Below the pieces are notes generated by a model. The model did not search any database and was not told where the DNA came from. It worked only from the letters and a program-made list of their open reading frames with translations. From NCBI GenBank assembly GCA_017525235.1, contig JAFXTC010000053.1, positions 62,001 to 126,000 of the forward strand: a stretch of DNA of 64,000 nt, written 5' to 3'. This document shows, one piece after another, positions 14,942 to 32,407 of the stretch. Position 1 is the stretch's first letter; each line of letters starts with the position of its first letter. The translations under genes and the position numbers were made by a program. The DNA is from Bacteroidaceae bacterium (GTDB lineage: Bacteria; Bacteroidota; Bacteroidia; Bacteroidales; Bacteroidaceae).

Positions 14942-15781
14942 ATGAAACAGAAACATTTAATCTTTTGTATGGGAGTGAGCACTATGTTGCTCTTCGCATC
15001 ATGCTCTCAACGCGAGTTTGATTTAAATCCTGGCGGGAGCACCTCTAATGAACAGAATAAGGAACAAGGTTCTCTTGTTTTGAATCTGAATGCTTCAACA
15101 AACTTTGCCGAAACACGTTCCTTGAACGAGGCTGATTACAGAAACACACAGTATTACGATGTCAAGGTTATTAATGCAAGCACCGATAACGTTATTCTGG
15201 AGTGTAAAGCTTATCAGTTGGCAACCAATCTGCCCAAGACAGTTGATATAGGCAGTTATCGTATCGAGGCATCTTACGGAAAAGAATATGATGCCAGTCG
15301 TTCCGATTTTTATATGTTCGGTTCCGAAGTCGTTACTGTTAAGGCTAAAGAAGAAAAGGCAGTAACCGTAAACTGCACCCCAACTTGCGGAAAGATTTCT
15401 GTAGCCTGGGATGCTTCAATGTCTACCTATTACGATGAGTACAATGTAACATTTGGCGGCACCAAGAAATTGGGTGCCAAGACGCTTGCCTGGAGCAAGA
15501 CAGATTCTGAGCCTTGGTATGTTGCATTGGATAAAGAGGGTGAGACGGTTTCTTATACCATCAACCTGACAACGAAGGAGGCTTATCTTCCTAAGGATGC
15601 AAGCACTAATACGGGAACAGCAACAGGTACCTTTACCTTGGAGCGCAACAAGGCTCACAAGCTGACCATCAGACCCAATTATATTGAGACTACAGACGGT
15701 GGCATGAAGCTGACTATCACCATTGATGACAGCACAAATGACCACAATATAACATGGGAGGTTCCTGTAACTTGGATTTAA
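14942..15781 (+). CDS. DUF4493-type lipoprotein, array gene 1
   Basis: Predicted outer-membrane or surface lipoprotein of 279 residues; function unknown. The signal peptide ends in a lipobox with Cys21 (LLFASC). A strand-like GSLVLNLNA stretch follows (about 43-51), then ETRS with Arg59. The rest resembles the DUF4493 domain: alternating strands, GSYRIEASYG, DFYMFGSEVVTV and a VTVNCTPTCGKISV stretch before a second sandwich half. It is first in the array and 17 bases before gene 2. The Cys / strand / TR layout recurs in nine other array proteins and is discussed in the findings. Confidence 0.8.
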   Translation: MKQKHLIFCMGVSTMLLFASCSQREFDLNPGGSTSNEQNKEQGSLVLNLNASTNFAETRSLNEADYRNTQYYDVKVINASTDNVILECKAYQLATNLPKTVDIGSYRIEASYGKEYDASRSDFYMFGSEVVTVKAKEEKAVTVNCTPTCGKISVAWDASMSTYYDEYNVTFGGTKKLGAKTLAWSKTDSEPWYVALDKEGETVSYTINLTTKEAYLPKDASTNTGTATGTFTLERNKAHKLTIRPNYIETTDGGMKLTITIDDSTNDHNITWEVPVTWI

Positions 15782-15798
15782 TTTCCTGATAAATCACA

Positions 15799-17100
15799 AT
15801 GAAAACGATGTTTAGAATGAAAAATATAAAGACTTCGCTCCTAACAGGAGCGCTGAGCGTTGTTGCTCTTTCTTCTTGCGTAAGCGAGAATCTTGATTTT
15901 GGGAAGGCAGATAATACAGAAACAGGTGTGCTGGAACTGAGCGTAGATGTTGCACAGCCTCAGTCACGTGCCCTCACCGAAGTTACTTCTTACCCTGTTA
16001 TCATCTATGATGCCGAGGGAAAAGAGAAGTTCTCGTATAATTCTGTATCCGAGGTTCCTGCCAAGATTACCACAGGCGTCGGTAACTATACCGCGGTTTC
16101 TCATACTCCTGGCGGTCTTGAAAAGCAGATGTCTTACCCATACTATAAGGGAACAAAGGATTTCGAGATTTTAAAGGGTGTTACCTCTAGAGTAGAGGTT
16201 ATCTGCAAAATGCAGAACAGCCTTATTGTAGTTAATTACAATGGTGATTTCCGTGAGGTATTTACTGCTTGGGAGATTACACTTAGTGACGGCAGTGAAG
16301 CAGCGATATCTTTCACCAACACCTCTTCTTCTGCCCCTGTTTATTACTGGTTTGGCGAAACTGGTGCTGATGAGCTGACACTTAATTTCCGCGGAACTAC
16401 AGCAGATGGTAGTACTGTTGTTTCCCGTAACACACTGACCACAAGTCAGGCATCATCGGGTTATGACGATGGCCGCGAGAACTTCTCCGGTGGTGAGACC
16501 TTGACCCTTAACTTCACCCCCGCTGAGTCAGAAGACGGTAAGATTAATTCAATCACTATTAACGCTAATGTAACATTTACTGAGACCAACGAGACCATCG
16601 ACGTTGTTGTTGTCGACAAGTCTAATATGGATGATCCCGGTAACGACCCAGGCAATGATCCCGGTAACGATCCTGGTAATGACAAGATTTCACTTGATTT
16701 GCCAGCCCCCATTAGTTATCCTTTGTTTGGTGCAGCTAGCGTGGACAAATCTCTTGGTGATACCAAGATTTCAGCTGAAGATGGTATTAAGAGCATCATG
16801 GTGAAGGTTGAATCCACTAGCGCAGACATGATAAGTTCTCTTAACGATCTGAAGACACAATATGGTGTCGACTTCGTAAGTGGAGCCGAAATTGTTGAGA
16901 ATCAGGATATGGTTCGTCTCTTCAATGACCTTCAGCAACCTTTGTCAGTTCCTTCAGAGGGCGACAAGAGCTATACCTTCCCCATTGGTAATTTCTTCGG
17001 TTTGCTTCAAGTTCTTCAGGGTGAGCATACCTTCAACCTTACTGTAACCGATATGAATGGTGCAGTTAAGTCGGGAAAGGTTGTAATTACTATTCAGTAA
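15799..17100 (+). CDS. DUF4493-type lipoprotein with DPGN spacer, array gene 2
   Basis: Lipoprotein of 433 residues (shorter if translation begins at the ATGs at 15808 or 15817). Lipobox Cys27 (ALSSC), strand GVLELSVDV (43-51), then QSRA with Arg57. A DUF4493-like domain fills about 60-270. A linker of four DPGN units (near 279-294) joins it to a C-terminal domain of about 135 residues that I do not recognise. It is one of the longer array members, so it might present a distal domain. Function is not known. Confidence 0.75.
   Translation: MKTMFRMKNIKTSLLTGALSVVALSSCVSENLDFGKADNTETGVLELSVDVAQPQSRALTEVTSYPVIIYDAEGKEKFSYNSVSEVPAKITTGVGNYTAVSHTPGGLEKQMSYPYYKGTKDFEILKGVTSRVEVICKMQNSLIVVNYNGDFREVFTAWEITLSDGSEAAISFTNTSSSAPVYYWFGETGADELTLNFRGTTADGSTVVSRNTLTTSQASSGYDDGRENFSGGETLTLNFTPAESEDGKINSITINANVTFTETNETIDVVVVDKSNMDDPGNDPGNDPGNDPGNDKISLDLPAPISYPLFGAASVDKSLGDTKISAEDGIKSIMVKVESTSADMISSLNDLKTQYGVDFVSGAEIVENQDMVRLFNDLQQPLSVPSEGDKSYTFPIGNFFGLLQVLQGEHTFNLTVTDMNGAVKSGKVVITIQ
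16633..16680. repeat. Four 12-base repeats encoding (DPGN)4
   Basis: In-frame tandem units coding Asp-Pro-Gly-Asn four times with synonymous drift between units. They form a flexible linker inside array gene 2. Confidence 0.85.
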
Positions 17101-17145
17101 TGTGAGCGTTAATGTTATGCAATAATGAATAAAGAAAAGACACAA

Positions 17146-18948
17146 ATGAAAAAGATATATTCAATATTGACGATTATTTGCCTGGCATTATTTTCAGTTT
17201 CATGTGCCAATGAACTGCTGCAGGGTGAAACTCAAGACGAGGGAAAGGGTTACTTGAAACTGGATCTTACGACGCTGGTTTCAACCAACACCAATACCCG
17301 TGCAACAGATGTTCCTCAGGGTTATAATGCTAAGACTATAGCTGTAAAAATCACCGATTCAGAAGGTACAGTTGTTAAGGAAACCCAGGATGTTGCAAAC
17401 GATCAGGAGTTTAAGGGTAATATCATGCTTGCTCCTGGTACTTATTCTATTACAGCCTCTTCTGCTGGCTGGGATGGTTCAAACTCAGGTTTCGGTGTTC
17501 CTTATTATGCTGGTTCTACCAAGGCAACAATTAAGAAGAACACGCTGACACAGGCCAGCCTGACCCTTACACAGGCCAACGTGAAGGTTACTGTTAATTA
17601 TAGCGATAACTTCCGTACCTATTTCAAGCAGGCTAAATGTATTGTTACCTCTGGATTGGATGACGTAGCTATGCAGGTATTTAGCCTGAATACTGTAGGT
17701 GCTGCCTATTTCCCTGTTGCTCCTCTTAACTTCCTCTTGGCTGTTACCAACATGTCCGACCAGTCTTACACCATGTCGAAGGACATTACCGAAGTCCAGC
17801 CACGCGACCACTTTATTATCAATTATAAGATTGCTGATGCAGGTTCTATTGGCGGTATCACTGTTAAGATAGACGACGAAACGCATGATTATATTTTCGA
17901 TATCGAGGTTCCTCGCAAGAGCTCTACTTCTCTTAATGTTAGTGCAGCTAATGCCTTTACCACATTTGCTTATCTGACAGGTGCAGTTACTGCTAAGACA
18001 TCCGAGTTTAGCGAGTCTAACCTTACCCTCCAGTGGAAGAAGAGTTCTGATCTCGAGTGGACAAGTGTTCCTGCTTCAGCACTCACTAAGGGCGATGAAA
18101 GCACTTATACTTATAAGCTGGCTAACTTGACTCCCAATACAGAATACGTTTACCGTATGAATTACAACGATGGTAATGCCAACGTGAACAGTAATGAAGT
18201 AACATTCACAACTGAAAGTATTCTGCAGCCAGAGAATGCTGGTTTCGAGAACTGGTATAAGGACGGTGCTATCTGGTATCCCAATGCTCAGGGTAGCAGT
18301 TATTGGAGCACCAGTAACTCTGGTTCTGCAGGAACGATGGGCGAAAGCTACAATGTAACTACAGGTATTACCAGCGGTGCATACAACGGCACATCCGCTA
18401 ACCTCCAGTCTATGTATGTTATCATCAAGTTTGCTGCTGCAAGTATCTTCACAGGAACCTTCGATGGTATGATTGGTACCAATGGTGCTAAGTTAGGTTG
18501 GGGTGTTCCCTTCACCTCTCGTCCCGCAGCTCTCAAGGGTTATATGAAGTATACCACTGGCGGTATCAACCGTGGTAACCAGCCTTCTGGTGTTGGTGCT
18601 CCTGCAAAGGGCGACAACGATGCATGCCAGATCTTCTGCGCACTTCTCACAGAGCGTCTCAAAGTTGCTAACGCTAGCAACAGCGATGGTTATGAGCTTA
18701 GCACCACCTTCAACTGGCAGAACGATCCTCGCATTGTTGCTTACGGACAGATAACGCAGAATACTTCGGATGCTAATTGGAAGTCGTTCAATATACCATT
18801 GGTTTATCGCTCACTTACCACTAAGCCCAAGTACATGCTCATTGTCTGCTCATCCAGCAAGTGGGGTGACTACTTCTATGGTTACGACGGTGCAAATCTG
18901 AAGCTCGACGACTTCTCGTTCGAGTATGGTGAACCAACGTTCCAATAA
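17146..18948 (+). CDS. DUF4493 + PCMD lipoprotein, array gene 3
   Basis: Lipoprotein of 600 residues from the ATG at 17146 (MKKIYSILT); an in-frame ATG at 17125 adds seven polar residues before the signal peptide and is less likely. Lipobox Cys20, strand GYLKLDLTTL, then NTRA with Arg52. After the DUF4493-like domain comes an Fn3-like segment (LANLTPNTEYVYRMNYNDG) and a C-terminal domain of about 230 residues like the PCMD (putative carbohydrate metabolism) family, with NAGFENWYKDG, IIKFAAASIFTGTF and a final KLDDFSFEYGE. It shares this C-terminal domain with array gene 5. Carbohydrate binding is plausible but not shown. Confidence 0.78.
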   Translation: MKKIYSILTIICLALFSVSCANELLQGETQDEGKGYLKLDLTTLVSTNTNTRATDVPQGYNAKTIAVKITDSEGTVVKETQDVANDQEFKGNIMLAPGTYSITASSAGWDGSNSGFGVPYYAGSTKATIKKNTLTQASLTLTQANVKVTVNYSDNFRTYFKQAKCIVTSGLDDVAMQVFSLNTVGAAYFPVAPLNFLLAVTNMSDQSYTMSKDITEVQPRDHFIINYKIADAGSIGGITVKIDDETHDYIFDIEVPRKSSTSLNVSAANAFTTFAYLTGAVTAKTSEFSESNLTLQWKKSSDLEWTSVPASALTKGDESTYTYKLANLTPNTEYVYRMNYNDGNANVNSNEVTFTTESILQPENAGFENWYKDGAIWYPNAQGSSYWSTSNSGSAGTMGESYNVTTGITSGAYNGTSANLQSMYVIIKFAAASIFTGTFDGMIGTNGAKLGWGVPFTSRPAALKGYMKYTTGGINRGNQPSGVGAPAKGDNDACQIFCALLTERLKVANASNSDGYELSTTFNWQNDPRIVAYGQITQNTSDANWKSFNIPLVYRSLTTKPKYMLIVCSSSKWGDYFYGYDGANLKLDDFSFEYGEPTFQ

Positions 18949-18949
18949 T

Positions 18950-19879
18950 ATGGGTTTAAAACTGAGAAACAATAGTATTATGCTGATACTGCTGCTGGCT
19001 TTTATGCCGGTAGCAGTATTCGCGCAATATACTCCGTACTCGCAGGGGACGTTTGACGGCGTTGGTCAGATGTCTTATTCCGACATGATAAATGGCAAGA
19101 CACCGAAGCATGCCAAAAATAAATATAATAAGGTACGCGAGCAATACGAAATGAACCTCCAGAAACGCCATATCCAGCGCATAGACCGTGGTGACCTCAA
19201 AGCCGCATTTATTCCCAAGGGAATGTGGATGTGCGGTGCTACGGTAAACTTCCGCGAATGGGAAAACGAGAACCAGAACCTTCTGGTCTTGAAGAATCTG
19301 AATATGGAGGGATATACGTTTTCCGTATCTCCCTATGTAGGTTATTTCGTGGCAAAAAACCTTGCCTTAGGTGTGCGCTACAATTATAGTCGGAATTATT
19401 TCTATCTAGGCGATTTGGACCTCAATCTGGGCGAGGATTTCAATATCAACTTGGAGGATCTTAACTACCTGGAGCATAAGCATGAGGCAAGTTTCTTCAT
19501 GCGTAACTATATGCCTCTCTTCGGAAGTAAGATTTTTGGTGCTTTTGCCGAGGTGCGTGCTACCTATTCGCATGCTACAGGTCGTAATAGCACCGGAGAC
19601 CCCGCAAAAAACAATTTTGACGGAGCCTACGAGACGGTCAACAAGCTTCAGTTGGGCGTATCTCCCGGCTTGTGCGTCTTTGTAACTGATTTTGCTGCTG
19701 TTGAGACCTCTATAGGTGTTTTAGGTGTGGATTACAAATGGAGCAAGTTTAAGAATGTTCACCCCAATTCCAACCCTAACGAGCCTGTCCAATACGAGAG
19801 CGGCAGTAATCACAGTGGCGGTGCCAACTTCAGATTCAATATCTTCAGTATTCATATTGGTGTGACATTCTTCTTATAA
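18950..19879 (+). CDS. Outer-membrane beta-barrel protein, array gene 4
   Basis: Predicted porin-like outer-membrane protein of 309 residues from the ATG at 18950; a start at 18926 would overlap the previous gene. The Sec signal peptide ends near VFAQ, with no lipobox. A charged segment (about 30-75) is followed by amphipathic strands with alternating aromatic residues, and the C-terminus FNIFSIHIGVTFFL ends in Phe, as outer-membrane barrels do for Bam recognition. It starts one base after the array gene 3 stop, so the two are probably translationally coupled. It is the only barrel in the array and could anchor or export the lipoproteins. No family name could be given. Confidence 0.7.
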   Translation: MGLKLRNNSIMLILLLAFMPVAVFAQYTPYSQGTFDGVGQMSYSDMINGKTPKHAKNKYNKVREQYEMNLQKRHIQRIDRGDLKAAFIPKGMWMCGATVNFREWENENQNLLVLKNLNMEGYTFSVSPYVGYFVAKNLALGVRYNYSRNYFYLGDLDLNLGEDFNINLEDLNYLEHKHEASFFMRNYMPLFGSKIFGAFAEVRATYSHATGRNSTGDPAKNNFDGAYETVNKLQLGVSPGLCVFVTDFAAVETSIGVLGVDYKWSKFKNVHPNSNPNEPVQYESGSNHSGGANFRFNIFSIHIGVTFFL

Positions 19880-19881
19880 AG

Positions 19882-20043
19882 GACCCTCCCCTTCCCCCTC
19901 CCGTTAGGGTGGGGAATAGAATAGATAAAGAAGACAAAGAATATAATTAATGAAGCTTAAAAATATCAGATACGATATAACAGTTTTACGGAGCTTAAAC
20001 ATTAGTACTCCCCGCCCTACACGGGAGGGGATGGGGGTGGGTC
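19882..20043. repeat. GC-rich inverted-repeat element spanning the start of array gene 5
   Basis: Left arm 19882-19914 (GACCCTCCCCTTCCCCCTCC onward) and right arm 20009-20043 are inverted copies of each other with a few mismatches and one or two indels, about 162 bases end to end. A related G/C-rich block lies at 31569-31611. This has the shape of a small non-autonomous repeat. The right arm is read in frame as the start of array gene 5. Confidence 0.65.
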
Positions 20044-21761
20044 TGCTGTTCCTGTTTCTGTTTCTCTTTCTCTTATCTTCGTGTGCTATCAGTGATGATT
20101 TACCCCTTCCTTATTGTAATGTAGAGATTACTGCATTCGAGATAGAAGGACAGTGTGATTCGTTAGGACGTGAGACAGATGCCTATGTTGTAAACCCGAA
20201 GAATTCTACCATCGACCTGTGGGTAAACGACGCAGTAGATATTTCCCGTCTGCGTGTAAAGAAGATGAAGGTAAACTATGAGGCAAGTATTGCTGTTGAG
20301 AACGCTGGTACATATTTCCCCAGCAAATCGTTCTTTGTTAGCGGGCAATCCTGTTATGCTATGAAGGATTCTACCTATATCGGAAAGGACTGTTCAACGT
20401 TGGATTTCTCTCGTGAGCTTACTTTTGTGCTGACCGCTACACAGGAATGCCGCTGGAAGGTGCGTGTTCATCAGGTGATTAACCGTGAGATTGAGGTGGA
20501 GAATCAGGTGGGAACTCCTACGATAGATGTTTATAATCATAACGTGATAGTATATGTGGCACCTACTCAGGACCTTAAAACCGTCAAGGTTAAAAAGATG
20601 TCGTTGGGTGGTGCTCATGGCAAGGTTTCTCCAGATCCTACAGGAGAGATTCTCGATTTCAGCTGGCGTCGTACCTTCCAGGTTACCTATGCATGGTCAA
20701 AGACTTCCGAGTCATGGGATGTGTTTATTTATAATGCAGAAAAGGGACTTGCCACTACAGCTCAGGTGTTCCCTCATGCAAGCAGGGCTTATGTAAGCGG
20801 AAGTATGCAGAACGGTACCACGCCTAAGGTAAAATACCGTCAGCTGGGAAGCTCAGAATGGCAAACCGTTCCCTCCGATTATATGCAGATTAATACTGTC
20901 AGCTACGAGGCGGTAATAACAAACCTTCTTCCTGATGTAAGTTATGAATATCAGGTTACTGCGGGAAATTCCTCATCAGCAGTAAGTACATTCCACACTG
21001 CACTTAATATGCAGCTGGAGAATTCCAGCTTTGATGACTGGCATATTGTAGGCACGGGCACTCAGGCTCTTTACAATCCTTGGCGGGAAGGTGATACCTC
21101 TTATTGGGATACCGGTAACCGTGGGGCAACAACGGTAGGAGCCAGCAACAGTACATTTGCTACGGAGGGCGGACGTACATACGCCAACCTGCAATCCAAG
21201 TATATTGTCATCAAGTTTGCTGCAGGTAATATCTTCACGGGAACCTATCTTAAGACAGATGGTACAAATGGCGTGCTCAGCATGGGACGTCCTTTTAACA
21301 GTTTCCCCACCAAGATGCAGTTCGATTATACCTATAAATCCTCAATCGTGAATAAAGGTGGAGGCAAATGGGATGAGAAATATTCGCGCTACATTAGTCA
21401 GAAGACTTATGACGAGATGCGTGGCAAGCCCGATTCCTGCTGTATCTATATAGCTCTTATCGGCGACAAGGACGAGGAAATGTACGAGGGAGTTATATAT
21501 CCTTATATCATCCGTACACGTCCCAGCGAGTTGCATCTTTTTGACCCTAACAACGAGAATGTTATTGCATACGGACAGTTCACAAGCGGTGATGACCAAA
21601 CAGATTGGAAGACAAAGACTATTACCCTTGACTATCGTTACAAGAATCGTACACCCAAATATGTCATTGTGGTAATTTCCAGCAGTAAATACGGAGATTA
21701 CTTTATAGGAGGTGATGCCTCTTTGTTGAAGATAGACAACCTAAAGTTGATATATGACTGA
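19950..21761 (+). CDS. PCMD-type lipoprotein, array gene 5
   Basis: Lipoprotein of 603 residues as drawn. A long N-terminal extension leads to a very hydrophobic stretch (LLFLFLFLFLLSSC) with lipobox Cys at about residue 45. It has no TR motif after the Cys, unlike its neighbours. The middle has Ig-like repeats (KVKKMKV and KVKKMSLGG), then an Fn3-like segment (ITNLLPDVSYEYQVTAGN) and a C-terminal PCMD-like domain (SSFDDWHIVG, IVIKFAAGNIFTGTY, LKIDNLKLIYD) homologous to that of gene 3. The start is uncertain because the inverted-repeat element supplies part of it: from the ATG at 20031 the signal peptide would lack its positive charges. Confidence 0.72.
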   Translation: MKLKNIRYDITVLRSLNISTPRPTREGMGVGLLFLFLFLFLLSSCAISDDLPLPYCNVEITAFEIEGQCDSLGRETDAYVVNPKNSTIDLWVNDAVDISRLRVKKMKVNYEASIAVENAGTYFPSKSFFVSGQSCYAMKDSTYIGKDCSTLDFSRELTFVLTATQECRWKVRVHQVINREIEVENQVGTPTIDVYNHNVIVYVAPTQDLKTVKVKKMSLGGAHGKVSPDPTGEILDFSWRRTFQVTYAWSKTSESWDVFIYNAEKGLATTAQVFPHASRAYVSGSMQNGTTPKVKYRQLGSSEWQTVPSDYMQINTVSYEAVITNLLPDVSYEYQVTAGNSSSAVSTFHTALNMQLENSSFDDWHIVGTGTQALYNPWREGDTSYWDTGNRGATTVGASNSTFATEGGRTYANLQSKYIVIKFAAGNIFTGTYLKTDGTNGVLSMGRPFNSFPTKMQFDYTYKSSIVNKGGGKWDEKYSRYISQKTYDEMRGKPDSCCIYIALIGDKDEEMYEGVIYPYIIRTRPSELHLFDPNNENVIAYGQFTSGDDQTDWKTKTITLDYRYKNRTPKYVIVVISSSKYGDYFIGGDASLLKIDNLKLIYD

Positions 21762-21771: not shown

Positions 21772-23565
21772 ATGAGAAGAATATATACCATATTATTCAA
21801 CCTGATGCTCCTTTTGGGCATTACAGCGATGCAGTCGTGCCAGAACGACTTGGATGCTGTAGTCGCTCAGGGCGGGCTGCATGTCACGTTGGGTAATGTG
21901 TCCTCTTCCATTGCTACCCGTTCTACTCCTGCAGAATTAGAGAAACCTACCGGGGATATGTTCAATGTTAAGGTTGAAGCCCAGAATGGTATGGTTAAGT
22001 ACAATGGCCCTCTTACTGACGAGACCATCACACTGCCAGGAGGAACCTATACAGTAACGGCAGAATATGGCGAAAACCCCATTCTTGCTCTGGATAAACC
22101 TTATTATATAGGAACGGAAGAGGTAGAGGTGGAAAACAACAAGGTCACAGATGCTACCATCAATTGTAAGGTAGGCAACGCCCTTGTTTCTGTTGTGTTT
22201 GGTGAGAATGCTGAGGAACGGGCACGTTTCAGCCGCTTCTACAGCGAATATGGCCTGAAGGTTAAGGTTGCCAACTATAGCATTGTCCTTTCAAACGCCA
22301 CGCCCAACGTCAGTGCCTACTTCCGTGCAGGAACTTCTATTGACTTGGAGTTTACGGGTGTGCTCAAGGATGCTGGCCTGCCTGTAAGTTGCGATTTGGA
22401 TTTGTCGCAGGTGGCAAACTTCCCCTCGACATTCCAGGCTGCAGACCATGCTATCGTAACACTTACTTTACCCGACCCGCAGAGTGCAATGGTTGTCTCT
22501 ATTACAAAGGTGGAGATGCAACAAGCCACGATGGACGAGACCATTCCTCTCAGCTGGCTGCCTATTGCTGTCGCATTGCCTGAGCACCAGTACGATATTA
22601 AGGGTGACCTCGTTGGCACCAACATTACCTTCCCTAATGCTTATCCAGGTTCTACTTGGAAAGCTGTTGTTGCCAAATCAGATGGTACGGTGGTACGTGC
22701 CGTGCAAGGAACGGGAAATCTTCTTTCCGACTACAGCAAGAATGCCGAATGGCCTTATCTGCCTGCCGGGCAGTATCGCGCTACCTATTATATTATAGAA
22801 GGCGAGACGGCAAACCTGACCAATACACGTGACTTCGTTATACGCAGTCCCAAGCTTACGGCAACAGTGGATGCCTGGACATCCTATGACAAATATCTGG
22901 CTGGGGATATAGCAGGCGCTAATGAATGTACCAACAGCACAGCATACGGATTCCAGAAGCATTTCTCCGTTTCGCAGACGTTGTATAATAACGATAAGTA
23001 CCGCAATCTTTATTCTTGGACGGCAACGGTAGACGGTAACTCCGTATCCATCAGTTCTAACGAGATTGCCAATTTGTCTTTTGCTGCTCATACCCTGAAG
23101 GTTACGGGTACATTCGACGGTACTACAGCAACAGCCCAGAAGACCTTGCATATCACAGGTCTGCCATACAATTCTGACGCCAATAAGTTCAGCGGATGGA
23201 CGGGCGGAAGTTGGAGCGACAGTGGTGACTCGGGTGGCGCACAAGCCCGTGAACCCGGTCAGCCTTGCTACCTTTTCACCTCCACCATCTATACACCCAA
23301 GTTCCATGCTCCCACCAACATCAATTACAGCATGACTTGGAATGAGTGGTTTTATGCCCTCTTCAACAATTATCGTAAGTCTAATTACGGATGGGTAGCT
23401 AATACCAGCACAACGCCAAGCGGCAAGTCAACCACCCCAAGCAACTATACCTGGACCTCTGTCTCAGAAGTGGGTACAATAAAGGCTTCTGCACCCTATT
23501 TCGGTATGACACATCAATCAAGTTATACATGGGGTATTAATACATTTAAGATATTGTATCAGTAA
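21772..23565 (+). CDS. DUF4493-type lipoprotein, long form, array gene 6
   Basis: Lipoprotein of 597 residues. Lipobox Cys23 (AMQSC), strand GLHVTLGNV, then ATRS with Arg50. A DUF4493-like domain (about 55-270) is followed by a C-terminal region of about 320 residues containing WKAVVAKSDGTVVRAV, WPYLPAGQYRATYYI and HITGLPYN. These same landmarks occur in array gene 8, so the two share a second domain set. That set is unrelated to PCMD. The gap from gene 5 is 10 bases. It is a candidate for a distal or ligand-binding subunit; function unknown. Confidence 0.75.
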   Translation: MRRIYTILFNLMLLLGITAMQSCQNDLDAVVAQGGLHVTLGNVSSSIATRSTPAELEKPTGDMFNVKVEAQNGMVKYNGPLTDETITLPGGTYTVTAEYGENPILALDKPYYIGTEEVEVENNKVTDATINCKVGNALVSVVFGENAEERARFSRFYSEYGLKVKVANYSIVLSNATPNVSAYFRAGTSIDLEFTGVLKDAGLPVSCDLDLSQVANFPSTFQAADHAIVTLTLPDPQSAMVVSITKVEMQQATMDETIPLSWLPIAVALPEHQYDIKGDLVGTNITFPNAYPGSTWKAVVAKSDGTVVRAVQGTGNLLSDYSKNAEWPYLPAGQYRATYYIIEGETANLTNTRDFVIRSPKLTATVDAWTSYDKYLAGDIAGANECTNSTAYGFQKHFSVSQTLYNNDKYRNLYSWTATVDGNSVSISSNEIANLSFAAHTLKVTGTFDGTTATAQKTLHITGLPYNSDANKFSGWTGGSWSDSGDSGGAQAREPGQPCYLFTSTIYTPKFHAPTNINYSMTWNEWFYALFNNYRKSNYGWVANTSTTPSGKSTTPSNYTWTSVSEVGTIKASAPYFGMTHQSSYTWGINTFKILYQ

Positions 23566-23572: not shown

Positions 23573-24313
23573 ATGAAGAAGATACTCTACATACTAATCG
23601 CCATACTCAGCCTGACGGCTTGTCAGAACACAGAAATAGCGCCTGATGTTAAGACTGGTACGCTCGTCCTCAGCCTTTATCCAGGTCCCAGGCCTTCGGT
23701 TAAGACCCGCTCAAATCAAGACGATTTGCTGGCAATCCGCATTACCCGTAAGGATGGAAAGAATTTTGCCGATGGTAGTCAGTACTTAGAATATGTTGTT
23801 ACTGATGCTACTGAGAAGTTTATTATGGAAGAGGGTACCTTCCTCATTCATGCGTATTCGCAGAATCAGAATACTTGGCATAATGACAACGGTGGTAAGG
23901 GTAGTGCCTGCTATGTCGGTGATACAGAAGTAACCGTTGCACACGATTCCACCTCATACTGCATCTATGAGGTTCCCATGACCAACTATGCGGTAACACT
24001 TACTTTGCCTGAGCTTTTCCACGACCTCTTCTCCTCATATACGTTTACAGTAACCAGCGGAAACCGAACTGTTAGTTTGCGAGAAGGGGAAAAGGCATAT
24101 TTCTCGCCCTATGAGGCAGGCTTCACCTACCAGCTCTCTGCCACCAATATTGATGGCGACCAGCACAGTGCCTCAGCCATTCTATATACTAATGTTCAGC
24201 GTGGTAAGCTTTACAACCTTCGATACAGCTTTGCCAGTAGCAGTAACAGTGGCGGTATAGACATCATCATTTCTGACGATACAACAACAGACGATACAAA
24301 CATAGATTTCTGA
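23573..24313 (+). CDS. DUF4493-type lipoprotein, short form, array gene 7
   Basis: Lipoprotein of 246 residues, essentially one DUF4493-like domain. Lipobox Cys17 (SLTAC), strand GTLVLSLYPG, then KTRS with Arg46, the closest spacing in the set. The domain has EGTFLIHAYSQN, GDTEVTVAHDS and YNLRYSFAS, and ends in an acidic, Thr-rich tail. It starts 7 bases after gene 6. It belongs to the short class with genes 1, 9, 10, 11 and 13, which could be repeating subunits if these proteins polymerise. Confidence 0.75.
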   Translation: MKKILYILIAILSLTACQNTEIAPDVKTGTLVLSLYPGPRPSVKTRSNQDDLLAIRITRKDGKNFADGSQYLEYVVTDATEKFIMEEGTFLIHAYSQNQNTWHNDNGGKGSACYVGDTEVTVAHDSTSYCIYEVPMTNYAVTLTLPELFHDLFSSYTFTVTSGNRTVSLREGEKAYFSPYEAGFTYQLSATNIDGDQHSASAILYTNVQRGKLYNLRYSFASSSNSGGIDIIISDDTTTDDTNIDF

Positions 24314-24359: not shown

Positions 24360-26216
24360 ATGAAGAAAACAATGAAAAAAATTCATCTTTCACTTATCAC
24401 CTTGCTATATGCAGGTGTGATGGTTTTGGCATCTTGTGCCAACGAGGTGGATCTATTCTCTTCTGTCGGTCAGAAGCCGGAAGAGGGCATGGGAACCTTG
24501 GAGATTAGCTTAGAAGGTAATGTTGCCACCCGTGCCACAACCAAAGTCTCTCCAGAAGAGGCCAAGAAGTTCCTGATTACAATTTTCAAGGGGACAAGCG
24601 AGGTTATTCAAGAGGCGACTCCTTTAGAAAATATGGGTACGTCTCCTCGCTTGAATGCTGGCTATGGCTATTCTATTATGGCTGAGAGTTGTACAGAATC
24701 AGATGCAGAAAATGCCGAAGACGAAAACCAAATTAAATGGGGTAAGCGTCGTTATGTAGGCAGATCTCAGTCTTTTGCTATTATTGCAGGTGAGACCACC
24801 AAGGTATCTGTACCTTGTAAAGTTGCCAATGGCGGTGTAAGTGCGTATTTCGATCCGACCATTACATCCCACTTTACCGATTACAGTATAGCCATTATAA
24901 AGGATGATACTCAACCACGCGAAAACCTTGTCTTTAATTCCAGCAATTGTGATTATAAGGATGGCGACGATATAAAGCAAAGACAGATTGCTTATTTCAA
25001 TATTCCAGCGGAAGGACGTTCCATCCACTATAGCGTAACAGTGGGTAGTGTTACCAAGGAATATGTTCAAGTACTTGAAGTGGCTAAAATCAAGCGTATA
25101 GCTGTAAGTTACAAGTCAGGAACGTTCTCGCTTGAAATCAATGTCGAGGATGAGGAAATGTATATGACTGACGAGGTTACAATTGAGCCAGATCCCAGTA
25201 TTCATGATAATGTTCCAGTTGTTACTACCGAGAACAAATACGAGAATGGTGAACTGGTGGGAACCACACTCTCTGCTACAGATCCTTCTTATGATGTCGG
25301 GGCTACAGGGTGGTCGGCATTGGTGAAGAATGCCAGCGGCGATGTCGTTCGTACCTTGTCATCTGCCAAGGGAACCCTTACCTCTGGTTATGACGATGCT
25401 AACTGGCCTTATCTGCCCATGGGCAATTATGTGCTGGAATATACCTTCGAGAATTTCAAAGGTATTATGGAAACAAAGGAAACTGCCTTCAGTATCACGG
25501 AACAGCCGAACTTCCAGGTTACTCTGAATGCTCTTACCTCTTATAGTTATGCTACAGGTGATGGCACAACCAAGGATGTCGCTCAGGCAAATGCATGTGC
25601 AAACAACAAGATTTATGCACCAACAGTTACTGTAACGGGTATCTCTAATGCATTATTGGTTGCCAAGTATGGTCTTAGCATCACCTATAATAATGAAACT
25701 AAGAATAACACCAAGCAGGCTGTGTACTCCGATTTAACTAAGGATCCTGGATCATACACTCTTACTGCCTCTGTTACTTTTGCCGGTTTAGAGAAAAATG
25801 TCAGCAAGACGGTTTACATTACAGGTATTCCTTATGAAGCAGCTCCCCCAACTACGGGTAATGGTTGGACGAATCCTAATGGACAAGTTAATTGGAACTC
25901 GGATCATGCAAGGTTGGGTGCTGGTACAGCTGGCGAGCAGCGTATTGTAAAGTCGTTCAATATCCCAGCTAATGTAAATGTGGCTGCTTACGTAAAGGCA
26001 GATACACATGGTAGTGCTGTGGGTACTACGTTTACGTTCTATGTTGCAGGAGTGGACAAGCATCATGTTACTGTTAACGGAACTGGTGATAAATCCTCGG
26101 ATACTACGGTGTATGAAACCCTTACCCCTTCCAAGAACACTGTAGAATGCCTAAACAGCTATGGTATGGGTCTTACACATACCAAAGTTTACAAAGTAAC
26201 TGTTAAGTACAACTAA
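24360..26216 (+). CDS. DUF4493-type lipoprotein, long form, array gene 8
   Basis: Lipoprotein of 618 residues (614 from the second ATG at 24372). Lipobox Cys26 (VLASC), strand GTLEISLEG, then ATRA with Arg58, counted from 24360. The N-terminal domain carries GYGYSIMAESCTESDAE, a stretch shared with genes 9 and 13, and VSVPCKVANGGVSAYF. The C-terminal half has WSALVKNASGDVVRTL, WPYLPMGNYVLEYTF and YITGIPYE, matching the second half of gene 6. It thus combines an N-terminal half like genes 9/13 with a C-terminal half like gene 6, which suggests domain shuffling within the array. Confidence 0.75.
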   Translation: MKKTMKKIHLSLITLLYAGVMVLASCANEVDLFSSVGQKPEEGMGTLEISLEGNVATRATTKVSPEEAKKFLITIFKGTSEVIQEATPLENMGTSPRLNAGYGYSIMAESCTESDAENAEDENQIKWGKRRYVGRSQSFAIIAGETTKVSVPCKVANGGVSAYFDPTITSHFTDYSIAIIKDDTQPRENLVFNSSNCDYKDGDDIKQRQIAYFNIPAEGRSIHYSVTVGSVTKEYVQVLEVAKIKRIAVSYKSGTFSLEINVEDEEMYMTDEVTIEPDPSIHDNVPVVTTENKYENGELVGTTLSATDPSYDVGATGWSALVKNASGDVVRTLSSAKGTLTSGYDDANWPYLPMGNYVLEYTFENFKGIMETKETAFSITEQPNFQVTLNALTSYSYATGDGTTKDVAQANACANNKIYAPTVTVTGISNALLVAKYGLSITYNNETKNNTKQAVYSDLTKDPGSYTLTASVTFAGLEKNVSKTVYITGIPYEAAPPTTGNGWTNPNGQVNWNSDHARLGAGTAGEQRIVKSFNIPANVNVAAYVKADTHGSAVGTTFTFYVAGVDKHHVTVNGTGDKSSDTTVYETLTPSKNTVECLNSYGMGLTHTKVYKVTVKYN

Positions 26217-26238
26217 ACAGAAATAAAGAAAGCGTAAT

Positions 26239-27066
26239 ATGAAAACTAAGATTCAATATACAATCTTGCTGGCAGTAACAGCGTTGCTGGCTGGCTGTAA
26301 TAATGAGCAAGACCTATTCAATGTGTCTTCCAACAAGGGTTCTTTTGCCCTGAATCTGAATAATGGAGAAATTGTAGTTAACACCGAGACCCGTGCAGAC
26401 CCTCGAACCCTCTCTGCAACGGACGCTGCAAACTATAATATTATGGTTTACCAAAATAGTATTGAACTTTGGGGGCAGAAAAAGGAGTATTCAGCCCTTA
26501 CAGATGCTGACTGTATCCTCAGCGTCGGTAAAGGTTATGCTGTATATGCCGAAAGCTGCACTGAGGCAGAAGCTGAGACTGGTTTTGGTTGTCCACGCTT
26601 TGCAGGCATATCAGAATCTTTCGAGATAAAGGCATCCGAAACAACTCCTGTCAGTGTTACATGCACACCTGCCAATGGTGGTCTTTGCGTAGTCTTCGAT
26701 AAGAGTTTTACAGATGTCTTTGGAAAATATTGGGTTGAGACAAAGGACAGCCGTAACCTGGTTTTTAATAGTGAGAACATGGCTACCTTCACTAAAGTCA
26801 ATGGAAAAGACAAACGTTCGAGTGGTGCTGTTGCGTACTACAATATGGATCCTTCCTCTGAAGAAGGACAGACCGTTCAGCTTGAGATTCATGCAAAAGG
26901 CGCTATTACAATTACCAAGGATGTTTTAGTAAAGAAAGGTTTGGTTACTCGCTTTACTGTCAATGGTCCTGGCGCAGGTACTGGCAGCAATACGGGTACT
27001 ATTGACATTGAGATTGATTACGATGATGATTACGGAATAGATGATAATCCTATAAATCTTGATTAA
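26239..27066 (+). CDS. DUF4493-type lipoprotein, short form, array gene 9
   Basis: Lipoprotein of 275 residues. Lipobox Cys20 (LLAGC), strand GSFALNLNNG, then ETRA with Arg52. Includes GKGYAVYAESCTEAEAE and VSVTCTPANGGLCVVF, close to the matching parts of genes 8 and 13. The C-terminus IDIEIDYDDDYGID is strongly acidic. It has a 22-base gap from gene 8 and a 36-base gap to gene 10. Function unknown. Confidence 0.75.
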   Translation: MKTKIQYTILLAVTALLAGCNNEQDLFNVSSNKGSFALNLNNGEIVVNTETRADPRTLSATDAANYNIMVYQNSIELWGQKKEYSALTDADCILSVGKGYAVYAESCTEAEAETGFGCPRFAGISESFEIKASETTPVSVTCTPANGGLCVVFDKSFTDVFGKYWVETKDSRNLVFNSENMATFTKVNGKDKRSSGAVAYYNMDPSSEEGQTVQLEIHAKGAITITKDVLVKKGLVTRFTVNGPGAGTGSNTGTIDIEIDYDDDYGIDDNPINLD

Positions 27067-27102: not shown

Positions 27103-27918
27103 ATGAAGAAATCAATTCTTTTAGCAAGTGCAGCTCTTGCTGCCTTGTCTTTCACTTCTTGCAACAACGAAGTGGATATGTTTGAACCTATCGGTTCTGA
27201 GAAGGCTACCATTAATCTGAACATCACCAATGATGATGCAATGTTAACTCGTGCAGGTGAAGGTGTAAAGACTGCCGATAAATCAAAATGGTATGCTAAG
27301 ATAGATACATATGATTCTCAATCCTGGAATCAAGCAACATGGGATGCAAAGACCTGGGTAAAAGCAAATACTCTAGAAGGTGTTACCCGTACTCCTGGTG
27401 ATTTTGTTATTCAGGTTGCTAACTACCCGGGAGAGGCTGCTGCTTATGCTAATACTGTAAATGATGGTGCCGGCGATGCTTACTACACATTAACAGATAA
27501 AGATATAACCTTACAAAGTGGTGTGAATAACCTGACTTTTGTATGTGGAACAGCAAAGAATGCCAGAGTCGTTCTGGATTGGGACGGTACTGCAAATGTG
27601 AATGGTCTTACAATGACAAGTGTTGTTGCTACCCAGACTTCTAAGAGCCGTTCATATACATTTACAGGCAATGGAACAGCATATTTCTATGCTGATGTTG
27701 ATATTGTATGTACCATTAATTATGTATATAATGAAGTTGAAAAGAGCATACAAAAGACTATAACAGCTCCCACTGCTGCTACCCAGTATGCATTCAACGT
27801 TAGTGCAAATTCAAATGGTACCATTACCACTCTGACCATTACTTATAACGATACGTTTGGTGATGGAACTCCTGTATCAGCTGAAATCGATGCTGCTACT
27901 GGTAACGAAGTAGAATAA
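27103..27918 (+). CDS. Lipoprotein with TR motif, array gene 10
   Basis: Lipoprotein of 271 residues. Lipobox Cys20 (SFTSC), strand ATINLNITNDD, then LTRA with Arg50. The body is less clearly DUF4493-like than its neighbours: it has a Trp-rich segment (QSWNQATWDAKTWVKAN) and Thr-rich strands, but keeps the same N-terminal plan and length. CNNEVDMFEPIGS after the lipobox resembles CANEVDLFSSVG in gene 8. A 183-base gap containing a MITE-like element follows it. Confidence 0.7.
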   Translation: MKKSILLASAALAALSFTSCNNEVDMFEPIGSEKATINLNITNDDAMLTRAGEGVKTADKSKWYAKIDTYDSQSWNQATWDAKTWVKANTLEGVTRTPGDFVIQVANYPGEAAAYANTVNDGAGDAYYTLTDKDITLQSGVNNLTFVCGTAKNARVVLDWDGTANVNGLTMTSVVATQTSKSRSYTFTGNGTAYFYADVDIVCTINYVYNEVEKSIQKTITAPTAATQYAFNVSANSNGTITTLTITYNDTFGDGTPVSAEIDAATGNEVE

Positions 27919-27933
27919 ACTAATCATAAGAGA

Positions 27934-28070: not shown

Positions 28071-28101
28071 CCTTTCCTTTTTATCATTCAACAAACAAAA
28101 A

Positions 28102-28854
28102 GTGGAGAAGAACAATACAATCAATAACCTAAAGTTCTTGCTACTGATGGCAGCTGTAGTGTTTACTGCTTGCCAGACAGAAGAGGTGCCTCCTGTAACA
28201 GAGAGTGCCAAGACAGGTTGTATTGTACTCTCTGTTCCAGAGGTGGAAGTCTATACCGAAAGCGGAACCAGAGGCGAAGCCAATGGCAGTATTGACGACT
28301 ACACATATACACTGAATAGTGTTGAGGGTAGTGTCAACGAAGCTTCGAACGTACCTGTTATCTTCGATAATAATGGCACTGCCATCATCCCAGCTGGTAA
28401 GTATACGTTAACAGCTACCAGCAAGACGGCTCAGGATGAGGCTCCTTGGTATCAGGGCACGTCCAATTCCTTTACTTTAGGTGTTGGAGGAACCCAATCC
28501 GTCAGCATCAATCTTGACAAACCCAAGAATGCAGAGATTGCTGTTGCTTTCCAGACAAGCTTCACCACTCTCTACGAGAACTATTCTGTAACTATAGGAA
28601 CAAAATCTGTTTCCGCCAATGGCAACCTATATGCTATGCCCGGAGAGATTACCTACACCATCAAGGGCACTGCCAAGGCAGGCTCTCATGTATCAGACAT
28701 TCCTGCGGAAGGCGTCGAAGGCACTATTATCGTAGCAGCCGGGACCAGTTATCCGCTCAATATATCAGCCCAAGCCATTTCCGACCTCCTTATAGAGTTC
28801 GGTGGCACTCATGACGGTGAGTTCGATACCAAAGAATATCGCCCACTAAACTAG
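28102..28854 (+). CDS. DUF4493-type lipoprotein, short form, array gene 11
   Basis: Lipoprotein of 250 residues that begins with GTG at 28102; no in-frame ATG gives a good signal peptide. Lipobox Cys24 (VFTAC), strand GCIVLSVPEV, then GTRG with Arg57. The domain has AGKYTLTATSKT, WYQGTSNSFTLGVGG and an acidic end. Its start lies 31 bases after the MITE-like element, so the insertion may have replaced the native upstream region and left a GTG start. It is 4 bases before gene 12. Confidence 0.72.
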   Translation: MEKNNTINNLKFLLLMAAVVFTACQTEEVPPVTESAKTGCIVLSVPEVEVYTESGTRGEANGSIDDYTYTLNSVEGSVNEASNVPVIFDNNGTAIIPAGKYTLTATSKTAQDEAPWYQGTSNSFTLGVGGTQSVSINLDKPKNAEIAVAFQTSFTTLYENYSVTIGTKSVSANGNLYAMPGEITYTIKGTAKAGSHVSDIPAEGVEGTIIVAAGTSYPLNISAQAISDLLIEFGGTHDGEFDTKEYRPLN

Positions 28855-28858
28855 AATA

Positions 28859-31564
28859 ATGAAGCAAAAGCTACTATATATAATAATGTTTATCGCCGCC
28901 CTCGCCCGGAGTAATGGGGTGTGGGGGCAACAGTATTATCTATTAAATGATGGAACGAAATATACAAGGTCATGGTTGAATGGTGAGGGCGTAATACACT
29001 CTTATTTCTTTACTGGAACTAATACTGGTGAGGTCACCTTTTATGCACAAACCTCCATGACTACGACCAACAATGCTAAAAGAATTATTGTAAAAGAAAC
29101 TCTTGATGGTAATACATGGTCTGAAATTGAAACAATTACTATTGGAACTGGGAATAACACACAATATAAAAGTAGCAAATTAAATACAGCTGCTAAAGGC
29201 GTGCAATTTTATGTAAGAGGTGCTTATGATCGTTCTGTGTGGAATGTCCAAGTGAAACGAGCCACCACACTCACCGCATCAAATGTTTCCTTCAATGAGG
29301 CTTCGATAGGAACCACAAATGACAAAACAATTACTGTGACCTATAGCAATGGCTTCAACCCTCAAACCTTCTCTGCAATAACCAGTAGCACTGGTTTCTC
29401 GGTCAAGAGCATAAGTACAACAAACATAACAGCTGAAACTGGTACAATTGATGTGACATTTAGTTTTACCCCAACTTCAGCAACAAACTATTCTGGAACA
29501 GCAAGACTACAACTAGGTTCAGTAACTAAAGATATCTCTCTTAGCGGAACAGGAACAATAAACAAGGCTAATCCCGCTTTTGAATGGAATATTCCTTCAA
29601 CTGTCTATACAGGCCGATTATATACAAACGTTTTACAAACAAGTAATTCTGAATGTACTCCCACAATGATGGTCGAGCCTGAAACAATGGTGCCATATGT
29701 ACATTATTCTAACGGGAATCTTTTTTTTAGTAAGGTGGGGAATGTACGTATAACATTTAGTCAAGATGAATCTGACCATTTCAACAAATGGTCAGAAACT
29801 AATTATTTTACTATTGAAGAACCACAGAATCATGTTGAATTTACAATCAATGATGCGACAAAGTACAATATGTTTGTTGTAGAGGAAAGTAATTCTGATC
29901 GTATTGGATATGATAATGGAATAAGATTGGGTACGACAAATCAAATTGTAAGTGTTTCTGATCGTAGTGATAAATATGTAATTATTGAATTTTCAGGAAT
30001 ACCAGATAAGTTATCTTTCACAACAACCGTAGCTCAATCTGGTCTTATTCCTTCTGGAATCTCATTCTATGTACAGGAAATAGACGGAAATGGAGTTTAT
30101 TATAGTGATCCCGAACAATGGACTAGTACGGAAAAAGAAAATACTGTTAACAAACAATTACAGCCAACAACACGTAAACTGAAAGTTTGCTATTCTGGCA
30201 ATTATTGGGCTCATATCAAAAATTTGAAGGTTACCGAGCTAAAGAAATTCGATGTTGATAAAACTGAGTTGTTTTTTGGCGAAAATACTAAGGGAGAAAA
30301 TGTAGAAGAACAAACATTTGCTTTTGAACATTGTAACGCAGGAACTGATGTAACCATCACATCAAATGATGCCAATTTCGTTATCTATCCTACAACTCTC
30401 AATACAACAGGTGGTGATTTGATGGGGACACAGGTCATTACTGTGACTTATCTGAACAATACAACGGGTGTGCACAATGGAACCATAACCATCAGCGACC
30501 CCAATGGCACAAACTCTCCGATTACAATAAACGTTAGCGGAACCACGCAGACCACCTATTATACTCGTGCTGAAGCAGAGGCTGGAGTAGGTGGAAGCGC
30601 CTATGTTTCTTATGTTTCCAGCGAGGATGCAGCAGCAAACCAGCATACAAGTACTTCGCTGAAAATTAGTGAGCTGACATCTGAAGACAAAGCCACGAAT
30701 AATGCCTACTGGATTGCTATCCCAGAGCAAGGTTATACTTTTGTGGAGTGGCAGTGGCCTAATGGAACACAAGCCTCTACCAATGCTTCTGATAAATGGG
30801 AGGGATATGAGTATAATTCGGAGGATCAGAATAGTCCAACGGTTGTTAAGTTTAAGGCCGTCTTTGCCCCCAAGATATTGACGTTGCAACCAACCTCATC
30901 TACCTATACTGCGGATTATTATAAGACAGTTAATCTTGGCTGGGCTCTCAAGTCAGGATACTCCACCATAGCTCTGCCTTTCAATACTACTATACAGGAT
31001 ATTGTGGGCGCTGGCTATGATTCTTCTACAGATTGGGTGGCACAACTGAGCGTTGTTGCTTATAATGCACAGGATGGATATTCGCTTTATTTTGAGAAGA
31101 AGAGTGAAATTGTGGCTAATCAGCCTTATATCCTGCATTTGGGTTCGGCGGTTAATTCTCCTGTATTCACAAATGTGAGTGTTGTGGCTGCTGCAACAGC
31201 ATCCCAAAATGCGACAAAGGGTGTAAACCTCAATAAGTGGACAATGCACTCCAACTTTGCACCCGACTTCGATATGGAAGGATTTTATGGAATAGCTGGC
31301 GAGAAGATTAAGAAAGGTGTACAAGGGTCTACGCTTAGTGCTTTCCGTGCCTATATCACAGGACCTGCTGACCCATCGGTTCAGGTGAAGGCAGCTTATC
31401 TGGATTACGATGAGGCTGATGGCTTGCTGGAGGTGCTGAGAGGAGAGGCCCATAGTGCAGAAAGCGTTTACGACTTACAGGGGCGTCAGTTGCCTAAGGC
31501 ACAAAGAGGGCTTAATATTATAAGAGGAGCAGACGGAGTAGTGATGAAAGTTTTGAAAAAATAG
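28859..31564 (+). CDS. Large secreted protein with C-terminal sorting-type tail, array gene 12
   Basis: Secreted protein of 901 residues with a Sec signal peptide (about 1-23, ending VWGQ) and no lipobox or TR motif. It contains Ig-like segments of the type seen in choice-of-anchor proteins (TFSFTPTSATNYSGTARLQL and TISDPNGTNSPITINVSGT) and ends with VYDLQGRQLPKAQRGLNII plus GVVMKVLKK, the form of Prevotella type IX secretion tails. It would therefore reach the surface by another route than the lipoproteins around it. The first half looks richer in A and T than the flanking genes. Function unknown. Confidence 0.75.
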   Translation: MKQKLLYIIMFIAALARSNGVWGQQYYLLNDGTKYTRSWLNGEGVIHSYFFTGTNTGEVTFYAQTSMTTTNNAKRIIVKETLDGNTWSEIETITIGTGNNTQYKSSKLNTAAKGVQFYVRGAYDRSVWNVQVKRATTLTASNVSFNEASIGTTNDKTITVTYSNGFNPQTFSAITSSTGFSVKSISTTNITAETGTIDVTFSFTPTSATNYSGTARLQLGSVTKDISLSGTGTINKANPAFEWNIPSTVYTGRLYTNVLQTSNSECTPTMMVEPETMVPYVHYSNGNLFFSKVGNVRITFSQDESDHFNKWSETNYFTIEEPQNHVEFTINDATKYNMFVVEESNSDRIGYDNGIRLGTTNQIVSVSDRSDKYVIIEFSGIPDKLSFTTTVAQSGLIPSGISFYVQEIDGNGVYYSDPEQWTSTEKENTVNKQLQPTTRKLKVCYSGNYWAHIKNLKVTELKKFDVDKTELFFGENTKGENVEEQTFAFEHCNAGTDVTITSNDANFVIYPTTLNTTGGDLMGTQVITVTYLNNTTGVHNGTITISDPNGTNSPITINVSGTTQTTYYTRAEAEAGVGGSAYVSYVSSEDAAANQHTSTSLKISELTSEDKATNNAYWIAIPEQGYTFVEWQWPNGTQASTNASDKWEGYEYNSEDQNSPTVVKFKAVFAPKILTLQPTSSTYTADYYKTVNLGWALKSGYSTIALPFNTTIQDIVGAGYDSSTDWVAQLSVVAYNAQDGYSLYFEKKSEIVANQPYILHLGSAVNSPVFTNVSVVAAATASQNATKGVNLNKWTMHSNFAPDFDMEGFYGIAGEKIKKGVQGSTLSAFRAYITGPADPSVQVKAAYLDYDEADGLLEVLRGEAHSAESVYDLQGRQLPKAQRGLNIIRGADGVVMKVLKK

Positions 31565-31568
31565 AAAA

Positions 31569-31611
31569 GAGGAGCCACCCCATCGCTCCCTTTTTAGGAG
31601 GGGGAGAGACA
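31569..31611. repeat. GC-rich repeat related to the 19882-20043 arms
   Basis: GGAGCCACCCC...CTCCC-TTTTT-AGGAGGGGGAG contains a short inverted repeat and resembles the arms at 19882-19914 and 20009-20043. It sits in the 54-base gap before array gene 13. Confidence 0.5.
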
Positions 31612-31618
31612 GTAAAAA

Positions 31619-32407
31619 ATGAATAGATATAAGGTATATATGGTGTTGATTGCGGCTTTGACGGCATTCCTAATGATAGGATGTCAGGCCGAGAACGATC
31701 CCTTTGATTTGCCCGTGGAGCAAGAGGGGACCGGCCGGATAGCTTTACACATAACGGCAGACGGCAAGATGCAGACGCGTGCGCCGAAGACGCTGACAGA
31801 TGAGCAGAAAAACCAATACCTTATTACTATTCGGCAGGGAAACGTCTATTATGTTGATGCAAAGGTGCTGAGCCAGCTGGCGACAACAGACCTTACCGTT
31901 CCCGCAGGCTATGGTTATATGGTTATGGCTGAGAGCTGTAGTGCCAGTGATGCTATCAGCAAACCTACAATCTATGGTCAGCCTCGATTAGTGGGAACGT
32001 CGGCAACCTTCCCCGTTGTCAAGGACGAGACCTCAACGGCTAACGTCCTTTGCACGCCTGCTAATGCGGGTGTTATGGTGACAGCTGCTGATGAAACCTT
32101 TAATGAGATATTCTCTGATTACGTGATGACGGTAAGTCTGGGCAGCCGTGAGTTGACATTCACCCCCGAGAATGCTTCCATCGTAGGTTATTATAATGTG
32201 TCTTCGACAGCAAACCTGTCTTATTCACTTACTGCCACGCGTAGAGAGAATGGCGAGACGGCGTCTGTGTCATCTACTGCGGTTCTGCAACAAGGAAGGA
32301 TTACACAACTTTCATTACGCAGTACGCCAAAGGGCACCATCACACTTGGTATTACCTACGACGACACCTTTGTGACGGAAGACATAGAGATGGTGATTGA
32401 TCCTTAG
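31619..32407 (+). CDS. DUF4493-type lipoprotein, short form, array gene 13
   Basis: Lipoprotein of 262 residues, last in the array. Lipobox Cys22 (LMIGC), strand GRIALHITADG, then QTRA with Arg54. GYGYMVMAESCSASDA and VLCTPANAGVMVTA tie it to genes 8 and 9. A terminator hairpin starts 25 bases after its stop and overlaps the end of the convergent regulator gene. Function unknown. Confidence 0.75.
   Translation: MNRYKVYMVLIAALTAFLMIGCQAENDPFDLPVEQEGTGRIALHITADGKMQTRAPKTLTDEQKNQYLITIRQGNVYYVDAKVLSQLATTDLTVPAGYGYMVMAESCSASDAISKPTIYGQPRLVGTSATFPVVKDETSTANVLCTPANAGVMVTAADETFNEIFSDYVMTVSLGSRELTFTPENASIVGYYNVSSTANLSYSLTATRRENGETASVSSTAVLQQGRITQLSLRSTPKGTITLGITYDDTFVTEDIEMVIDP

Follow-up and report, generated by a model that had tools for sequence, protein, structure and literature searches.

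Does a run of related lipoprotein genes in a member of the Bacteroidaceae encode a surface fibre that polymerises in the manner of type V pili? The genes lie in a 64,000-nucleotide stretch of DNA, here called the window, from Bacteroidaceae bacterium GCA_017525235.1 (contig JAFXTC010000053.1, positions 62,001–126,000, forward strand). Between window positions 14942 and 32407 there are 13 open reading frames, all on one strand (+) and separated mostly by small gaps, as an original prediction made from the same DNA had described. It had also pointed out, correctly, that ten of them (genes 1, 2, 3, 6–11 and 13) encode lipoproteins with a lipobox Cys and, further on, an Arg at residue 46–59 within the motif [TS]R[ASG], abbreviated TR below. 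The subunits of type V pili are primed by cutting off their first strand after an arginine. The answer that we favour is that the array probably specifies a surface fibre of a divergent, type V pilus-like kind, with DUF4493, the domain common to the ten proteins, being a distant branch of the FimA/Mfa superfamily of pilins.

The original assignment of the ten proteins to the DUF4493 type agrees with our searches: nine of the 13 array genes (1, 2, 3, 6, 7, 8, 9, 11 and 13) match PF14900 above the curated Pfam cut-off, and gene 10, which has no Pfam match, was recovered at E = 3e-13 by a DUF4493 profile built in this analysis. The window's own genome (2.6 Mb, 72.7% complete) yielded nine DUF4493 matches, every one inside the array. 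For comparison we used 80 related loci (L065–L144) from named public genomes, those of Phocaeicola barnesiae (L112) and Parabacteroides gordonii (L142) among them, kept from at least 413 confirmed stretches and found with orthologs of gene 3, which is present in them by construction; the window brings the number of sources to 81. DUF4493 proteins are present in 80 of the 81 and number 423; once the 45 in which no lipobox was called had been set aside, 378 remained. Between 12 and 50 residues after the Cys, [TS]R[ASG] occurs in 255 and [TS][KR][ASG] in 306 of these 378 lipoproteins, against a chance level of 2% and 9%, respectively, in random 39-residue segments of the same DUF4493 proteins.

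Among other lipoproteins of the same loci, the two patterns occur in 5 and 8 of 124, a lopsided control composed of 69 proteins with only a PCMD domain (TR in none, T[KR] in one) and 55 others (five with TR). The five TR-positive proteins (L072:20645–21538, L075:20839–21681, L078:17171–17929, L097:20612–21493 and L120:17343–19103) have no match to our own profile; all show the strand–TR plan by eye and four resemble gene 10. Judging from these sequences, they are probably divergent array members missed by the DUF4493 profile, and our counts probably understate the size of the family. Outside the array, the motif was seen in 1 of 20 lipoproteins sampled non-randomly from the window's own genome, and that single carrier sits on a stretch fetched for its Mfa2-family match, without which the count is 0 of 19. 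These comparisons confirm that the TR motif follows the lipobox Cys of DUF4493 lipoproteins more often than by chance.

In an alignment of 130 of the 312 non-redundant DUF4493 members (from 365 passing our filters), the Cys is followed by a polar, variable stretch with E or D at one column in 111 of 130 sequences, a make-up similar to that of the export signal of Bacteroidetes lipoproteins as presented in passages of PMC5080379. After this stretch come a G (128 of 130), a hydrophobic residue at every second position (99–100%), a variable loop and finally the motif, with T or S in 110 of 130 (90 and 20), R or K in 118 (102 and 16) and A or S in 106 (93 and 13). The fraction of hydrophobic residues (LIVMFYW) is 0.99, 1.0 and 1.0 at residues 25, 27 and 29 and falls to 0.17, 0.02 and 0.02 at residues 26, 28 and 30. 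In sequence, this is the layout of a strand that could fill a groove, with a basic site behind it at which the precursors may be cleaved.

The strand and the basic residue could instead reflect the fold only, if they were part of a stable two-domain sandwich and the proteins stayed on the surface as lipidated, monomeric binding lipoproteins. The Pfam DUF4493 profile itself begins at the amphipathic strand and the Arg is replaced by Lys in many loci, both of which suit such a role; the motif, however, is flanked by variable sequence on both sides, in the linker before it and in the residues that follow. In the window and L065–L097 (without L095), a set called nearest to the window by locus number, that is by search-result order and not by a tree, the motif has Arg 188 times and Lys once, whereas elsewhere in these proteins the Arg share is 0.34. 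With kinship ignored, a need for positive charge alone would hardly account for such a ratio in proteins otherwise rich in Lys, and we consider a purely structural role quite improbable.

In the remaining loci the motif has Arg in 85 and Lys in 56 of 141 cases (background Arg share 0.26), and the site there is therefore basic rather than strictly Arg. The use of Lys or Arg differs among loci beyond permuted labels (132 vs at most 119 in 2000 permutations), where the permutation counts, as well as the Arg/Lys binomial values, ignore shared ancestry. The Lys/Arg background was rejected as the cause of this choice (rho = 0.24, p = 0.07). Depletion of residues before the site was absent for R (2.0% vs 2.1%); K is lower there (3.5% vs 5.0%).

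Comparison of profiles with hhalign points to the pilins. The DUF4493 profile matched FimA-type, Mfa2-type and Mfa_like_1 profiles at 66%, 64% and 52% over 110–128 columns, the FimA and Mfa2 sets being small (n = 7 and n = 12), and its TR was aligned with T[KR]A in the profiles of FimA-type and Mfa_like_1 pilins. Control profiles of gene 5, the barrel-like protein and PCMD gave 0.1%, the reversed profile at most 0.7% and 20 block shuffles at most 1.2%, while the positive control of FimA against Mfa2 gave 96.6%, a value inflated by one protein (L178/L194) present in both sets. A generic sandwich fold was rejected as the source of the match, as Fn3 (10 sequences) reached 1.7% and CarbopepD_reg_2 (18 sequences) 5.3% over 27 columns, in short stretches only. 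Accepted pilins of the same order have a comparable site, [TS][KR][ASGT], in 14 of 22 Mfa_like_1, 3 of 5 FimA-type and 2 of 7 Mfa2-type proteins, counting only those in which a lipobox was called (22 of 29, 5 of 7 and 7 of 12) and using a looser pattern, which some will match by chance. One FimA-family relative, L178, matches the solved Mfa3 (5nf4) at E = 1.7e-67, and in that alignment its motif Arg is paired with the Arg of an R-A step in Mfa3, with one-residue insertions alongside.

The N-terminal half of DUF4493 thus appears moderately similar to FimA-, Mfa2- and Mfa_like_1-type pilins. The likeness to type V pilin precursors that had been proposed for the array extends in sequence to the lipobox, the amphipathic first strand, the T[RK][AS] site and the N-terminal domain profile, and it ends at the C-terminal half. 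As in the type V pili of Porphyromonas (FimA, Mfa1–5) and the Mfa_like_1 proteins of Bacteroidales, where the site is of the T[RK]A type, short and long subunits are clustered. Unlike them, the array belongs to a different Pfam family, has a barrel-like gene and a PCMD lipoprotein conserved in its core, contains up to ten TR subunits and comes from a genome in which gingipain was not found.

Which enzyme would cut such a site? The original prediction looked to an Arg-specific protease gene, and an Arg-gingipain-like enzyme was not found in the window's own genome at its 72.7% completeness. The sole C25 match there adjoins a PorV-like gene (identified by eye) and therefore looks like PorU, and Arg-gingipain was rejected as the processing protease. 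Within the genus, more than one C25 match is present in 3 of 12 genomes carrying the array and in 10 of 25 that do not, some of the matches being weak or in two pieces. The genome contains clostripain (C11) instead, with three matches, the best of which is a 389-residue lipoprotein (L206:1615–2784, − strand). Passages of a 2025 review (PMC12632263) describe a surface clostripain that cleaves type V pilins and, in addition, fragipain, which cleaves and releases numerous other surface lipoproteins. We regard the lipoprotein clostripain as a better candidate than Arg-gingipain.

The fragipain example also lends itself to a different interpretation, in which a clostripain-like protease cuts at T[RK][AS] and sheds the DUF4493 proteins as soluble binding proteins that do not polymerise. 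The lipoproteins freed by fragipain are, like the presumed products of the array, surface lipoproteins of Bacteroidales, processed by clostripain according to the same passages (PMC12632263), and genes 3 and 5 have PCMD domains that could work independently. Shedding would not, however, need a near-invariant amphipathic strand before the cut or a profile link to pilins, and it is by this strand and by a pilin-like domain that the array differs from the fragipain-released lipoproteins. For the array, such shedding seems unlikely.

A number of results weigh against the relationship with type V pili. The full-length profile match takes in the lipobox Cys and the linker that are common to all these lipoproteins; when the part after TR was compared alone, the FimA-type and Mfa_like_1 values dropped to 2.6% and 3.0%, and only the Mfa2-type match stayed, at 67%. 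The C-terminal half of DUF4493, where the donor strand would lie, has no match to the pilin profiles (0.1–1.7%). The values of 52–66% are moderate, in a test that is itself weak between pilins (Mfa_like_1 against FimA-type 7%, against Mfa2-type 2.1%). The original prediction had proposed a comparison with the PF06321 and PF08842 families; at the level of Pfam, the 13 array proteins had no match at E up to 1 to PF13149, PF06321, PF08842 or PF15495. Among the 130 aligned relatives, Fimbrillin_C was insignificant (3 of 130, best E = 0.054), and it was the sole pilin family among the 25 listed of 199 weakly matching families. A search by sequence for a solved relative of DUF4493 returned nothing significant. 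Clostripain is found in 35 of the 37 genomes of the genus, including all 12 array carriers; present with or without the array, it is therefore no specific partner of it. Finally, type V pili are not known to include a barrel of their own. Separately, a weak structure match to BplA (E = 0.15) was discarded, as it was gone once the profile had been enlarged and none of the papers listed fitted.

In the type V-like fibre that we favour, each precursor would be lipidated at the Cys and exported to the surface, as suggested by the polar-acidic stretch after the Cys, which is like the Bacteroidetes export signal. The first amphipathic strand (G-h-x-h-x-h) would fill the groove of the N-terminal sandwich until T-[R/K]-[A/S] is cleaved behind its basic residue by a protease on the cell surface, for which the lipoprotein clostripain is the likeliest candidate. 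The cut would remove both lipid and strand, and a strand from the following subunit would enter the vacated groove. The stalk or adaptor subunits would be the single-domain members, the tip adhesin would be the DUF4493–Fn3–PCMD product of gene 3, and gene 5, a PCMD lipoprotein that lacks the motif, would supply the lipid-anchored base.

Gene 3 (17125–18948, +), the candidate tip adhesin, combines DUF4493, an Fn3-like region below the cut-off and PCMD (PF13201), with Cys27 and TR-A. Its Arg is residue 59 from the listed ATG and residue 52, the position given in the original prediction, from the internal Met8, at which 7 of 11 other rows of the gene 3 alignment begin; the other nine Arg positions, listed with their genes below, are as originally given. 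PCMD proteins of known structure (4jrl, 4het, 3hbz and 3s30), named putative or hypothetical glycoside hydrolases, match the C-terminal part of the gene 3 profile, the best stretch covering PCMD only and not DUF4493. Passages of the same review state that type V tip pilins typically have C-terminal ligand-binding domains (PMC12632263), and a portion of PMC5954841 identifies the Porphyromonas fimbrial component Mfa5 as a substrate of the type IX secretion system (T9SS). By analogy, genes 3 and 12 may be viewed as formal counterparts of the type V tip pilin and of Mfa5. Gene 12 (28859–31564, +), a possible T9SS-type neighbour of the pilin-like genes, encodes 901 residues without a lipobox; its tail, YDLQGRQ...MKVLKK, looks by eye like a T9SS sorting signal, and no match to a T9SS hidden Markov model was found.

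After gene 3 come a barrel-like gene and the putative base. Gene 4 (18926–19879, +) has no Pfam or NCBIfam match, and a signal peptide and a barrel-like C-terminal strand (..HIGVTFFL) were recognised by eye. Gene 5 (19950–21761, +), the candidate lipid-retaining base subunit, is a PCMD lipoprotein with neither DUF4493 nor a TR motif near its Cys. The Cys is at residue 18–26 in several of its orthologs, and the true start of gene 5 is therefore probably downstream of the listed one. From its listed start the gene reads through a G-rich element (20010–20041) ahead of the signal peptide; a C-rich element (19882–19915) is located just upstream.

This arrangement is conserved. In loci labelled by profile, DUF4493+PCMD, barrel-like and PCMD genes form a run in 69 of 81, the first member being there by construction of the search; two DUF4493 genes stand directly ahead of the run in 58 of 81, and in most loci a relative of gene 4 sits between the counterparts of genes 3 and 5. 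As the PCMD-only lipoproteins lack TR, they would keep their lipid. The many different subunits, next to which a barrel-like gene and a lipoprotein without TR are conserved, would also suit a fixed hetero-oligomer, assembled by strand exchange on the barrel and the PCMD lipoprotein and never growing into a long fibre. The diversity of paralogs alone is nevertheless compatible with one repeating stalk subunit, and we give the fixed assembly a low probability; it overlaps with the favoured reading, and the likelihoods expressed here do not sum to one.

A more specific version of the fibre model can be put forward only tentatively. In it, DUF4493 loci of Bacteroidales from rumen and gut would build a distinct class of type V-like pilus, in which up to ten different strand-exchange subunits are joined into a heteropolymer. 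Clostripain, and not gingipain, would prime the subunits, PCMD would form the tip, and a conserved outer-membrane barrel would make up a dedicated base together with a PCMD lipoprotein that never loses its lipid. The original prediction spoke of an undescribed structure. Family and locus do appear undescribed, whereas the mechanism would be that of the known type V pili. DUF4493, PF14900 and PF13201 were not found in the literature searched, a search that did not extend to the founding type V pilus paper, and PCMD appeared in other senses among the matches listed. If the favoured reading is true, it provides a function for DUF4493, a Pfam family of unknown function, and extends type V pili to genomes such as the window's own, where searches with the FimA and Mfa_like_1 families gave no match and Mfa2 one weak match. 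It also names a testable cut-site and protease, making pilin processing in Bacteroidales without gingipains directly testable. Elsewhere in the same genome there is a lone Mfa2-family lipoprotein (L204:6257–7135, E = 1.3e-5) with an ASRAA motif after its first strand.

Fifteen genomes out of 61 have DUF4493 matches, which in most of them are confined to a single contig; the genus accounts for 12 of the fifteen, out of its 37 genomes. At E = 0.001 none was found in 25 of the 37 genomes of the genus, which are incomplete. This pattern suggests that the array is gained or lost as a unit.

The remaining TR lipoproteins of the array include single-domain and longer members. Single-domain DUF4493 proteins are encoded by gene 1 (14942–15781, +; Cys21, TR-S, Arg59), gene 7 (23573–24313, +; Cys17, TR-S, Arg46), gene 9 (26239–27066, +; Cys20, TR-A, Arg52), gene 11 (28102–28854, +; Cys24, TR-G, Arg57) and gene 13 (31619–32407, +; Cys22, TR-A, Arg54). 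Gene 1 ends in ..ITWEVPVTWI, and by this C-terminal pattern 49 proteins are gene-1-like. The divergent gene 10 lies at 27103–27918 (+; Cys20, TR-A, Arg50). Longer members are gene 2 (15799–17100, +; Cys27, SR-A, Arg57), in which DUF4493 is followed by a C-terminal region with a weak PKD-like match below the cut-off, and genes 6 (21772–23565, +; Cys23, TR-S, Arg50) and 8 (24360–26216, +; Cys26, TR-A, Arg58), both with a long C-terminal region. The lipobox of gene 6, MQSC, falls outside our first lipobox pattern and its Cys23 was assigned by eye; a later caller scored ten window proteins. Outside this series, PCMD occurs in genes 3 and 5 of the array, and no informative Pfam match was found for genes 4 and 12.

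Upstream of the array, between a peptidyl-prolyl isomerase gene and gene 1, overlapping short inverted repeats surround GGTTAGGTGTT (14430–14543). An invertible promoter upstream of gene 1 was considered and rejected, the inverted repeats there all being short-spaced. On the other side, a gene convergent with the array (32439–33554, −) encodes what appears by eye to be a membrane protein; it has a C-terminal AraC-type helix-turn-helix match below the cut-off and is a possible regulator.

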